Positions 37,822 through 42,936 of a stretch of 58,716 nucleotides of DNA are shown here, piece by piece. The translations under genes were made by a program, and so were the position numbers. Source of the DNA: Nitrospirae bacterium GWC2_57_13. GTDB taxonomy: Bacteria > Nitrospirota > UBA9217. Under the pieces are notes generated by a model. It was not told the origin of the DNA. It searched no databases and saw only the letters and a list, made by a program, of their open reading frames with translations. How positions within the stretch are numbered: the stretch's first letter is position 1; each line of letters starts with the position of its first letter. The stretch is taken from contig MHDZ01000066.1 in assembly GCA_001805055.1 (NCBI GenBank), positions 4,904 to 63,619 on the forward strand, in the 5' to 3' direction.

Positions 37822-38445
37822 TCATCCCTTCAATTTTTTAGCTATCTCCGCAACATGCTTGCCCTGGAAGCGCGCGATGGCCAGTTCGTTCTCGCTGGGC
37901 ATGCGCGACCCGTCTGGACCGGCTATGGTCGACGCGCCATAGGGCGTTCCACCCGATATCTCCTGCACGTTCATGAGGCGCTGTTCCGAATAGGGGACAC
38001 CGACGATGATCATGCCCTGGTGAAGCAGGGTGGTGTGAAAGCTCGTGATCGTTGTCTCCTGACCGCCATGCTGCGTGGCCGTAGACGTGAACACGCTGCC
38101 GACCTTCCCGATAAGCCCACCATTCATCCAGAGCCCTCCGGTCTGATCGAGAAAGTTCCGCATCTGGGCGCACATATTCCCGAACCGCGTCGGCGTCCCG
38201 AAGATAACAGCATCCGCATCCGCCAGCCCGTCAACTGTCGCGGTCGGGACCTGGCTGAATGCTTTCCGCGCCGCTGCGGCGCCCGACTCCTCAAGGACAT
38301 TCTTTGGGACAAGCTCCGGCACCTGGTACAGGGCCGCCTCGACGCCGGCAACGGACCTCGCTCCTTCCGCCACCGCCTCGGCCATCCGGTATACGTGGCC
38401 GTACATGCTGTAAAAAACGACCTGGAGCTTCACGTTCCCCTTCAT
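37822..38445 (-). CDS. wrbA: NAD(P)H:quinone oxidoreductase WrbA
   Basis: A 207-residue flavodoxin-like enzyme that reduces quinones by two electrons using NAD(P)H and FMN. The FMN phosphate loop [15 protein letters not shown] (about 9-23), [34 protein letters not shown] and [16 protein letters not shown] are all classic WrbA motifs, and the length is normal. Its start overlaps the stop of the small gene upstream by four bases, with AAGGAG inside that gene. Part of a redox-stress group with the ferritin-like protein further upstream. Confidence 0.95.
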
Positions 38446-38717
38446 GCGGCGCTCCTTCCGAAGGTCTCCTTCTCATCGAAATTCCTGATGAACTGCGCGA
38501 CCTGCACGCCGAGATAGACGCACTTAATGCCGTTCATGCACTCATCAGCGTCCTTTTTCTCGAGATGGGTGGTGAGCTCAGCGTTCTTTCTCCGGAAGGT
38601 GACAAGGTATGCGTCCTTCTCGGCGCTGAATGAAATTTCGACACCCAGGTCGTGCTTACTGATTTCCGGGTGCATTTCAAGGATCTTCTCTTTTAGTGAT
38701 TCCAGCGTGTATGCCAT
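38442..38717 (-). CDS. Conserved hypothetical protein co-transcribed with wrbA
   Basis: A 91-residue soluble protein with an excellent ribosome-binding site (AAAGGAGGTTGTC). It starts as a helix ([18 protein letters not shown]), followed by beta strands ([19 protein letters not shown]) and a helix with two cysteines. The fold looks like a small alpha-beta domain; I do not recognise the family. The four-base overlap with wrbA suggests stoichiometric expression. Confidence 0.75.
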
Positions 38718-38783: not shown

Positions 38784-39269
38784 CTAGCCTTCAACGATGG
38801 TGTGCTCCTTCCACATGAACCAGCTGCCCGTGTCGGACAGAAAAGAATAGGTGTTCGCAAAGATCTTATAATGCTGCTTTTCTTCTTCAATCAGGCGGCG
38901 AAACAGCGCTTTTTCCTTCTCCGTCTTTGCCCCGGCGAGCGACTTCTCATAGAATGCCGCACCCTCTGATTCCATCTTCATGGCGATCTTGAAGGCCTCC
39001 AGTTCGTCCGTCGTCGCCTCGACCTTCTGCATCATTTCATCCTTCATCTCCTCGAAAACGGTCTTGATCTTCTTGAGGGGACTGACGTCCTGCGCCGACA
39101 CATCCAGCCCCTTGATGATCTGCGAGATCATCTCGAGGTGACGCTTCTCGTCATCCACGATAGTGAGGAACATCTTCTTGCCTGCGGGATATTTCGTCTT
39201 CTGGGACGCTTCCGAGTAGAATTTTATCGCATCAGTTTCCATTTTCCTGGCGATCTCAAGTGCGTTCAT
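38784..39269 (-). CDS. Ferritin-like/rubrerythrin-type diiron protein
   Basis: A 161-residue four-helix protein without the rubredoxin domain. The diiron ligands follow the pattern E (ARKMETDAIKFY), ExxH (DDEKRHLEMI), E (AMKMESEGAAFYE) and ExxH (EEEKQHYKIF). Such erythrin-like proteins reduce peroxide or handle iron in anaerobes. I chose the ATG at 39269 because AAAGGAG ends six bases before it; the ATG two codons upstream touches the ribosome-binding site. Its own promoter is upstream. It resembles the ferritin-like half of the rhodanese selenoprotein at 40727-41569. Confidence 0.88.
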   Translation of the reverse strand: MNALEIARKMETDAIKFYSEASQKTKYPAGKKMFLTIVDDEKRHLEMISQIIKGLDVSAQDVSPLKKIKTVFEEMKDEMMQKVEATTDELEAFKIAMKMESEGAAFYEKSLAGAKTEKEKALFRRLIEEEKQHYKIFANTYSFLSDTGSWFMWKEHTIVEG

Positions 39270-39642
39270 GCTCATCTCCTTTGTCGGTCTTTAGTAGCAC
39301 GAGTATGCCTTACCTTCCACTATTTAAAGTGTACCCTATTCTCCCCAAGAATGCAATTTCGCCCGACGAATACCGGACGCGCTTTATCCTTTTATTGATA
39401 TATACCCTTAGTCAGGTACGATTCAAATTCTTCTCACCCTGGCAGGAAAAAACCTTTTTTGACTCTGATGTACGCTGATTGAGGTATGAAGAATCCTCAT
39501 TTTTCATGGAGGTTAATCCGCCGTTATCCGCGTCAAAGGTTTTTACTTTTTTGATTCCCCGAACCTTATTTTTAAAATAGGGTGCGGGGCTTGTCCGGGT
39601 TAGGATGAGAATCGTTCTGAAACAGAGGCCCTTCCGGTGAAA
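39270..39642. other. Intergenic region between ferritin-like and NifX-like genes
   Basis: It holds the ferritin promoter and, at about 39465-39540, a degenerate dispersed repeat containing ACGCTGATTGAGG and CCGTTATCCGCGTCAAAGG. No gene seen. Confidence 0.5.
39328..39356 (-). promoter_or_regulatory. Sigma-70 promoter of the ferritin-like gene
   Basis: On the minus strand TTGCAT (39356-39351), 17-base spacer, TACACT (39333-39328), about 60 bases before the start codon. Confidence 0.55.
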
Positions 39643-40023
39643 CTAATGCGCGCAGCCCCCACCCGCGTCATGGCCGCCGCAGCAGCCCTGGACCGAGAAC
39701 TCAGACAGCTTCTTCGTTGAAAAGAGCAGCACGTTCTCGCCAATGTTCTCTGCCTGGGAACGATAGACCCGTATCCCTGACTGGTTCAGACGGGTAAGTG
39801 CGCCCGCACCGATGCCGCCCACCACAATAGCGTCCACGTTCTGGCCATCAAGGGCCTTGATCGGATTGCAGGCACCATGGGCATGATGCTCGTCCTTATT
39901 GTTGATGATCGAGACCGCATTCGTCTCCGTATCGACGACGACAAACATCGGCGCCGAACCAAAATGGTTGTATACCTTGCTTTCGATGCCTTCGTTTGTC
40001 TGGACCGGGAAGCATACCTTCAT
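39643..40023 (-). CDS. NifX/NafY-type iron-molybdenum cofactor-binding family protein
   Basis: A 126-residue protein of the dinitrogenase FeMo-cofactor biosynthesis fold: starts MKVCFPVQTNEG, has SKVYNHFGSAPMF, VVGGIGAGALTRLNQSGI and a Cys/His-rich tail (CCGGHDAGGGCAH). Members outside nitrogenase clusters are common in anaerobes and bind metal-sulfur clusters of unknown use. No nif gene is near, so nitrogen fixation is not implied. Start follows AAAGGAGGAATTACA. A DUF134 regulator gene lies upstream on the same strand; the two families are often neighbours. Confidence 0.88.
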   Translation of the reverse strand: MKVCFPVQTNEGIESKVYNHFGSAPMFVVVDTETNAVSIINNKDEHHAHGACNPIKALDGQNVDAIVVGGIGAGALTRLNQSGIRVYRSQAENIGENVLLFSTKKLSEFSVQGCCGGHDAGGGCAH

Positions 40024-40193: not shown

Positions 40194-40236
40194 TGTTCCT
40201 GATTTTATCCGCATCCAAATGCTTTTTTCAGGATCA
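40194..40236 (-). repeat. Dispersed repeat family E, copy 2
   Basis: Inverted relative to the copy at 27294-27336 with the same TGATCCTGAAAAAAGCA end. Its last bases overlap the stop codon of the DUF134 gene. Confidence 0.75.
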
Positions 40237-40515
40237 GTGTTTGTCTTCAAATATGAGAGCGCTGCCCTTCACAAGGGCCGCTGCCACTTTCCCGCGCGCC
40301 GCGGTCAGTATCCGCTGGACCGTCCCCCGGGACACGCCCATCCTGCCCCCGGCCTCTTCCTGGGTAAGGCCATCAAGATCGCACAGCTTCAGCGCTTCCA
40401 ACTCATCGCGGGACAGGGAAACATGGCCGATCTCCGCCAGAGGGATTCCCGTTGGCTTGAAGGCTTTCCCCCGGAACGGGCATCCGCATTTTCTCGGCTT
40501 CTTAGTTCTCGGCAC
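40234..40515 (-). CDS. DUF134 family DNA-binding protein
   Basis: A 93-residue protein with a GTG start. The N-terminal CGCPF segment with basic flanks and the helix-turn-helix LDGLTQEEAGGRMGVSRGTVQRIL (about 50-75) are the DUF134 pattern. Such proteins are predicted transcription regulators, often beside NifX-like or ATPase genes of the Mrp/NBP35 group. Here the NifX-like gene follows by 210 bases on the same strand and may be its target. The stop codon lies in a dispersed repeat. Confidence 0.88.
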   Translation of the reverse strand: MPRTKKPRKCGCPFRGKAFKPTGIPLAEIGHVSLSRDELEALKLCDLDGLTQEEAGGRMGVSRGTVQRILTAARGKVAAALVKGSALIFEDKH

Positions 40516-40726: not shown

Positions 40727-41569
40727 CTACAGCTTCCGGTCAAGAAGCGACGCAAGCCTGGACAGATGCTGCTTCTCCTCGAGCATCAACATTGAGAAGA
40801 CATCCCTGGCCTTTGCGTTCTCTCCCATGTTCCGGTCCATCTTGATGTACAGGTCGTAGGCATTCGCCTCGAGTGAAATGGCGAGCTCCAGCACGTCGCG
40901 GACGCCCTTGCCCTTTGCCCACGACAATCCTTCGGTCACGCTCATGCCGCCTTCCATGATATCCTCTGACGTCCCGTTCGGAATCAGAGCACGATGAAAA
41001 TCCGCCTTTGCTTCCTTGCCGGACAGCTTTGTGTAAAGATTGGCAAGGGACTCCTCATGGTGCTTCTCGGCCGTTGCCAGATCTCCGAAGAGCTTCTGTG
41101 CTTCCTTATCATCAACCGATCCGGACAGTTCCGCGTAGAACCGGCGCGACCCTTCCTCCAGAAGCCACGCAAGAGCCAGCAGGACCTCCGGGCTCGCACC
41201 ATCGGGGAAATGGGCCATGCCCGTCTCGGGCGGACCAGCAGCTCTCAACCCCTCCCAGGCATTGATCCCGCCCTCCATGCTGGAGACGTTCGTGAAACCC
41301 AGGGTCGCGAGCATTGACGCAGCAGCACGGCTGCGCATACCTGATGCTCAATAAGCGATGGTGGGCTTGTTCAGATCAAGCTCCTTGTGCCGGTCGGGAA
41401 TGTCATTCACCGGAATGAGCCGGGCGCCGGGCAGATGGCCCCGCTCGTATTCCTTTGGCTGTCGGACATCAACGAGATTATATTCATCGGGCTTTTTCTT
41501 CCCGATGAAGGCCCGCACATCCTCGGCCGTCATGGTCTCGACTGGCTTGAAATAATCGGCAACTCCCAT
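40727..41569 (-). CDS. Selenocysteine rhodanese fused to ferritin-like domain
   Basis: Reading through an in-frame UGA (41350-41348) joins two frames into one 280-residue protein. Residues 1-100 are a rhodanese domain: LVDVRQPKEYERGHLPGA, then IAY-Sec74-ASGMRSRAAA, where rhodaneses have catalytic Cys in CxxGxR. Residues 110-280 are a ferritin-like diiron domain with EEGSRRFY, EKHHEES, LEANAYDLY and EEKQHLS ligands. A bSECIS-type hairpin follows the UGA at 18 bases. The start (ATG 41569) follows AGGAGGTGTTCA. It should handle persulfide or selenide sulfur together with peroxide or iron. A plain stop/truncation is the alternative, but homology on both sides and the fit at the active site argue against it. 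Confidence 0.85.
41322..41334 (-). promoter_or_regulatory. Candidate bSECIS hairpin of the rhodanese selenoprotein
   Basis: On the minus strand GCAGC/GCTGC closes a CGT loop that starts 18 bases after the UGA at 41350-41348, with G as second loop base. This fits the bacterial SECIS rules; the stem is short (5 bp). Confidence 0.6.
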
Positions 41570-41787: not shown

Positions 41788-42936
41788 TCACAAGCCTCCC
41801 TCAGGCTCGTCCAGTTCACCCGACACCTGGAAGGTGCGCATGAACCTTCTGTCTATGAAATCCTTCAGGCGGAAAGCCGGTTTCCCGTTCATCAGCAGGA
41901 AGCCTTTGCGCAGCATGCCGGTTCCATCTCCCATATTGAAGATGAGAAGATAGGTATAATGATACCGGCCGCGGACCCGAAAGGAACGCAAGACCCCGTC
42001 TTCCAGGGCTGCGAACAGATTGTGATGCAGGATAGGGTTCTGGCGCACGGCATAGACACCTACTTTTTCCAGATCATGCCCCACGAGGCTGATGCAGTCC
42101 CCTCCCCCGAATATCTCCGGATGCTTCGTACACTGGAGATGGGCGTTCACGAGCAGGCCACCGTCGTCACCCGTGGGAAGCCCCGATTCGCGGAACAACG
42201 GAGACGGCCGCGTGCCCATGGACGCGAACACGACATCAGCGTTAAGCTTCGTCCCATCGGTCAGGGTTACCGAGCCTTCTTCCACGGAACGGGCATAGGC
42301 GCCCTCCCGAACCTCCACGCCCGTCCGCGTCAGGCAGCACCGCACCCGCTCCCTGATCCTGCCGGCAAATCGGTGGAAGATCCGGCTGCCCACGACCAGC
42401 GTCACCCGCGCCTGCCCGTTGTTGTCGCGGACCAGCCGCATCACGTTCCCCGCGATCTCCACCCCTGCGGGTCCGCCACCGAGCACGACGATGTTCAGCG
42501 GTCTTCGCCGCATCTCTTGGATTATATAGGTGCGCGCATGCAGCAGGTTGATGATGGGCTTGACCGGGTAGATCCCGTTCTTTGCGGCTTCGAGGGACTC
42601 CAGCGGCACATCGCTCCCGGTGTTGAAGGAGACGACGTCGTAGGGCACCTCGCTGCCCGAGCGGAGGAACAGAACACGCTGGTTGGCATCGACCCGCACC
42701 ACGGCGTCCTGGATGAACTTCGCCCCCCGGTCTTCCACCATCTTCTTTACATGGAAGCGTATCTCCTGGGGCCGGTATATTCCCGACAGCATTCCGGGCC
42801 CCATACCGGAATAATACTGATAGGACGAGGGGCTGATCAGCGTTACGCGATGCCCGCGATCGACATACTCGCGGAGGTTGAGCATCACGGTCAAGTGGGC
42901 GTGTCCGCCGCCAACAAGGACAAGATGTCTGGCCAT
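41788..42936 (-). CDS. SelD-associated type FAD/NAD(P) oxidoreductase (TIGR03169-like)
   Basis: A 382-residue flavoprotein of the NDH-2/sulfide:quinone reductase fold. FAD motif LVLVGGGHAHLTV at the N-terminus, second dinucleotide motif VVLGGGPAGVEIAG, and GGGDCISLVG near the end. The YYSGMGPGMLSGIY segment is characteristic of the oxidoreductase domain found fused to selenophosphate synthetase (Nterm_to_SelD). Here it stands alone, 220 bases upstream of the selenocysteine rhodanese on the same strand. A role in selenium or sulfur redox is inferred from that; a quinone reductase role is the alternative. Start follows AAAGGAGAATCACC. Confidence 0.82.
   Translation of the reverse strand: MARHLVLVGGGHAHLTVMLNLREYVDRGHRVTLISPSSYQYYSGMGPGMLSGIYRPQEIRFHVKKMVEDRGAKFIQDAVVRVDANQRVLFLRSGSEVPYDVVSFNTGSDVPLESLEAAKNGIYPVKPIINLLHARTYIIQEMRRRPLNIVVLGGGPAGVEIAGNVMRLVRDNNGQARVTLVVGSRIFHRFAGRIRERVRCCLTRTGVEVREGAYARSVEEGSVTLTDGTKLNADVVFASMGTRPSPLFRESGLPTGDDGGLLVNAHLQCTKHPEIFGGGDCISLVGHDLEKVGVYAVRQNPILHHNLFAALEDGVLRSFRVRGRYHYTYLLIFNMGDGTGMLRKGFLLMNGKPAFRLKDFIDRRFMRTFQVSGELDEPEGGL

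Follow-up and report, generated by a model that had tools for sequence, protein, structure and literature searches.

Catalogues of selenoproteins have included selenocysteine (Sec)-containing rhodaneses since 2005 (PMC1088965), and five forms of rhodanese-like selenoproteins have been tabulated (PMC13188914). Form 2 (PF00581, UxxG, MBM9537886.1; PMC13188914) carries Sec in its rhodanese domain, within the same U-x-x-G motif as the protein described here. The papers searched mention no ferritin-like fusion for it, and it is by this description, rather than by comparison with the MBM9537886.1 sequence, that our protein is set apart. The TsoB rhodanese/DsbD fusion-like selenoprotein (NF045694) is also a Sec rhodanese fused to another module. 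However, it has a different partner domain and a UxxxxU motif with two Sec residues, and our protein reaches only 22.6 bits against its cut-off of 805. On the side of the iron domain, rubrerythrin, DPS-like (DPSL) and TM1526 proteins have the same E, ExxH, E, ExxH ligand set in a four-helix bundle, but the rubredoxin domain (two CxxC) of classical rubrerythrin is absent here and a rhodanese is attached instead. The persulfide dioxygenase-rhodanese BpPRF (5ve3-5ve5) likewise joins an iron enzyme to a rhodanese, although its iron domain is unrelated, its domain order is reversed and it uses Cys instead of Sec. Finally, CoA-disulfide/persulfide reductase-rhodaneses (3icr, 8a56, 3nta) pair a Pyr_redox flavoprotein with a rhodanese in one chain, whereas here the flavoprotein has a gene of its own beside that of the rhodanese, whose fusion partner is a diiron domain instead. 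The selenoproteome literature searched yielded no mention of a Sec rhodanese linked with rubrerythrin or ferritin, and no NCBIfam model (June 2026) claims the fusion protein (21 weak matches, none over cut-off). An earlier note on this DNA had called the combination unusual. This holds for the fusion to a diiron domain, of which we found no description, and not for Sec at the catalytic position, since Sec rhodaneses are an already catalogued kind.

The window, a stretch of 58,716 nucleotides from Nitrospirae bacterium GWC2_57_13, carries the fusion gene on its minus strand (Table 1). The interval proposed earlier was correct; read on the plus strand, however, it contains many stops and gives a nonsense product, and this reading was dismissed. 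When TGA is translated as Sec, the frame contains a single UGA, at codon 74, and a GGAGG sits immediately 5' of the ATG. Pfam Rhodanese (PF00581) spans this codon at residues 14-106 (3e-23, 82.5 bits against a cut-off of 22.2) and is followed by Pfam Rubrerythrin at residues 131-275 (1e-11, over cut-off), in agreement with the earlier proposal of homology on both sides of the UGA. The active-site motif U-A-S-G-M-R-S provides the six-residue loop (C/U-x4-R) that defines GlpE/PspE-type single-domain rhodaneses, and it is on family and motif that the designation as a putative selenium-active sulfurtransferase draws. The protein contains no Cys at all. As anticipated, automatic annotation breaks the gene: standard ORF calling returned just the shortened 3' frame (40727..41338). 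Further UGA-interrupted frames are present in the window.

Table 1. Features of the fusion locus and its neighbours (positions in the window)
Feature	Position	Strand	Details
Sec-rhodanese and ferritin/rubrerythrin-like diiron fusion gene	41569-40727	minus	280 aa, TGA read as Sec
In-frame UGA, Sec74, rhodanese catalytic position	41350-41348	minus	25 UGA / 28 Cys codons among 53 homologues
bSECIS hairpin	41335-41330 / 41323-41318	minus	stem CGCAGC/GCUGCG, loop CGUGCU, 18 nt after UGA
Predicted diiron ligand region	40766..41158	minus	E138, E168xxH171, E234, E265xxH268; all six retained by each of the 25 Sec forms
Pyr_redox_2 flavoprotein, directly upstream, co-directional	41788..42936	minus	TIGR03169-related
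Small sigma-70-type HTH protein, downstream	40234..40515	minus	similar to PRK04217, below cut-off
NifX/NifB-like (Nitro_FeMo-Co) domain protein, downstream	39643..40023	minus	relative adjoins Cys orthologue in L129
Stand-alone rubrerythrin-domain protein, downstream	38784..39275	minus	163 aa; homologues near related genes in L130, L131

Full-length homologues were found in 51 of 396 genomes of the same phylum and, with three more from other MAGs, gave 53 distinct sequences for alignment. At residue 74, where the earlier note had asked whether Cys or Sec occurs in homologues, the two alternate (Sec in 25, Cys in 28) and no third residue is present, a pattern that lies well outside what chance would give. 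No second in-frame UGA was found in any of the 53; one sequence (L035) also has a TAG farther along. Because the same UGA recurs in 24 other genomes, making 25 in all, it is not a sequencing error for TGC. A or G is commoner than R directly after Sec, whereas R usually follows the Cys of Cys forms. Twenty of the 25 Sec forms are devoid of Cys, and hence the Sec forms share no internal thiol that could act in resolution.

The published bSECIS model specifies a loop of 3-9 nt, a stem of 4-16 bp, a G at loop position 1 or 2, a spacing of 16-37 nt and an MFE <= -7.5 (PMC13188914). The hairpin downstream of codon 74 lies exactly where it had been claimed and agrees with this model, with 7 bp, a 6-nt loop and -10.8 kcal/mol. 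An Rfam scan of the window gave no matches. Free folding of 51-nt segments produced only weak z-scores (mean -0.93 for Sec and -0.11 for Cys genes), and fixed hairpin geometry and codon usage were therefore used for comparisons across the family. By fixed geometry (at least five of six pairs plus the loop G), the hairpin is present in 23 of 25 Sec genes and 3 of 28 Cys genes; by the full published model, including the MFE threshold of -7.5, in 20 of 25 and 2 of 28, respectively. Arg79, which is invariant in the protein, is encoded by CGC in all 25 Sec genes but in only 4 of the 28 Cys genes, while CGC accounts for 21% of the other Arg codons of Sec genes. Similarly, the codon of Ala83 is GCT in 23/25 Sec genes, compared with 10/28 Cys genes. 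This constraint on synonymous codons in Sec genes implies that selection acts on the RNA. On the evidence of sequence comparison, codon 74 is almost certainly decoded as Sec and the gene is a real selenoprotein gene.

The machinery for such decoding is encoded in the same genome: selA and selB are adjacent, with tRNA-Sec (selC) about 2 kb away, all within about 6 kb on contig C33, and selD lies on another contig (C76:25022-25939, L141). All four matches exceed curated cut-offs. The absence of selB or selC, named earlier as grounds for abandoning the Sec reading, can thus be discounted, and the proposed check for all four genes came out positive. Since one TGA interrupts selD, SelD itself probably contains Sec. 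Across the phylum sample, selB or tRNA-Sec was detected in 21 of 22 Sec-form genomes, and neither was found in G351, a Sec-form genome that is 91% complete. Most Cys-form genomes also carry the Sec machinery, and therefore its presence does not determine the choice between the two forms. Elsewhere in the genome of the window lies a gene for another likely Sec rhodanese, probably exported (L019; C58:12020-12304, minus strand). Its motif, Y-C-R-G-A-G-U-T-L-S, places Cys at the catalytic site, with Sec five residues further along, and it is closest to TsoB and NF041203, far below the cut-offs of both.

Members of the fusion family are found both in Nitrospirota and among MAGs with a Deltaproteobacteria label. 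The protein tree calls for about three switches of the Sec/Cys label: Sec forms make up one broad, poorly resolved group and a separate pair (L051 and L085) with a differing hairpin loop (AGGUCG or AGUUCG). Because Sec and Cys forms cluster on the tree, the association counts cannot be taken as independent, and tree-aware sign tests of Sec against the hairpin codon or diiron integrity comprised just two to three independent pairs and had little power. One Cys form (L038), grouped with the Sec forms at weak support, retains the hairpin, probably as a relic from an ancestor with Sec. In the G151 genome, a Sec form coexists with a Cys paralogue, which belongs to an eight-member Cys clade (L040, L044, L045, L049, L080, L083, L094 and L097) that has lost the diiron ligands. 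Against the mechanism favoured below, these eight paralogues indicate that the rhodanese domain is able to function in the absence of iron, and the clade is perhaps a repurposed, iron-free branch. Most of its members have common extra cysteines near positions 31, 120 and 207.

Both sequence and structural model place the second domain among ferritin-like diiron proteins, with a four-helix bundle and six carboxylate/His ligands. AlphaFold2, run with a five-sequence alignment, gave two well-defined domains (pLDDT 88.8, pTM 0.88). In a Foldseek comparison with the PDB, the model matched single-domain rhodaneses and DPS-like/TM1526-type diiron bundles. None of the top 50 matches combined the two domains, and a PDB sequence search also returned separate rhodanese and ferritin-like matches. 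Ala or Ser stands in this family where rubrerythrin has an extra Glu (E94xxE97). As judged from the predicted ligands, the domain very probably binds a dinuclear metal site.

The gene lies in a same-strand run of redox genes, with the flavoprotein directly upstream. The flavoprotein scored 263.7 bits over the full length of TIGR03169 ('Nterm_to_SelD'), below the cut-off of 310, and is accordingly a relative rather than a member of that family; it is also the sole strong TIGR03169 relative in its genome. TIGR03169 takes its name from fusion to SelD, and an NADH oxidoreductase of this kind (COG1252) was predicted by Zhang et al. in 2008 to generate the SelD substrate (PMC2432076). A TIGR03169-like gene lies immediately upstream in 8 of 25 Sec loci, drawn from the phylum of the window and one Deltaproteobacteria-labelled MAG; the 19 Cys loci have none in that position. 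Genome-wide, such a gene is present in 13/22 Sec-form genomes versus 2/29 Cys-form genomes. Rubrerythrin-type neighbours were found in the window and in several relatives, and relatives of the downstream neighbours also adjoin some other family members. Farther downstream on the minus strand are a 91-aa conserved protein of no known family (38442-38717), which occurs near rubrerythrin genes in three loci, and, within the same run of redox genes, a WrbA-type NAD(P)H:quinone oxidoreductase (37822-38445) whose score is well above cut-off. Other conserved-neighbour clusters were mostly shadows or common domains and were set aside.

The best explanation of the locus as a whole, which we favour without yet giving it an even chance, combines a Sec rhodanese, a flavoprotein reductant and removal of peroxide or O2 by the diiron domain. 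SelB with tRNA-Sec almost certainly reads codon 74 as Sec, directed by the bSECIS element 18 nt downstream. The Sec74 selenolate would then take up sulfane sulfur (Sec-Se-S-) or be oxidised to the selenenic acid by peroxide, and with no resolving cysteine at hand, an external reductant would restore it; in a subset of genomes, this could be the upstream NAD(P)H flavoprotein. It cannot be the only reductant, because 9 of 22 Sec-form genomes have no gene for it. The diiron centre, for its part, may reduce H2O2 or O2. The enzyme is tentatively regarded as one by which an anaerobe handles peroxide or O2 and persulfides in a Sec-dependent manner.

An alternative centred on selenium trafficking, in which Sec74 carries a perselenide that the flavoprotein reduces to selenide for SelD while the ferritin-like domain protects or stores iron or selenide, appears unlikely. 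The kinship of the upstream gene to the SelD-fused TIGR03169, the predicted role of such oxidoreductases in making the SelD substrate (PMC2432076), its position as the only strong relative in the genome and its enrichment in Sec-form genomes all speak for this alternative. Against these, the neighbour falls below the TIGR03169 cut-off, none of selD, selA, selB and selC is near the fusion gene, and most Cys-form genomes likewise possess the Sec machinery yet do without the Sec form. Its more specific version, a dedicated system in which the Sec-rhodanese/diiron enzyme and the SelD-associated-type flavoprotein convert oxidised or persulfide-bound selenium to selenide for SelD, is more doubtful still; if true, a selenoprotein would be feeding its own synthesis pathway.

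Comparably doubtful is persulfide oxidation, by which Sec74 would gather sulfane sulfur for oxidation with O2 at the diiron site, as a diiron analogue of BpPRF. Sequence and fold searches both return the BpPRF rhodanese, and every Sec form retains the attached iron domain, but the iron domains of the two proteins are unrelated: that of persulfide dioxygenase is a beta-lactamase-fold mononuclear iron domain, as opposed to a four-helix diiron bundle. Moreover, the carrier genomes (Nitrospirota and MAGs labelled Deltaproteobacteria) look anaerobic. A reading of the UGA as a true stop or as an error, with two separate fragments or a pseudogene as the outcome, agrees with the truncated frame that is all gene finders give, but is extremely improbable given the identical UGA elsewhere, the hairpin and the synonymous-codon constraint.

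With the Sec-rhodanese/diiron reading retained, the locus brings to light a selenoprotein family with two domains whose genes are fragmented by automatic annotation. What Sec costs and what it gains in sulfur-transfer chemistry can be tested directly on the natural Sec and Cys versions, both of which occur in the G151 genome, and the link to a SelD-associated-type flavoprotein offers a concrete lead on the substrate of an orphan oxidoreductase.
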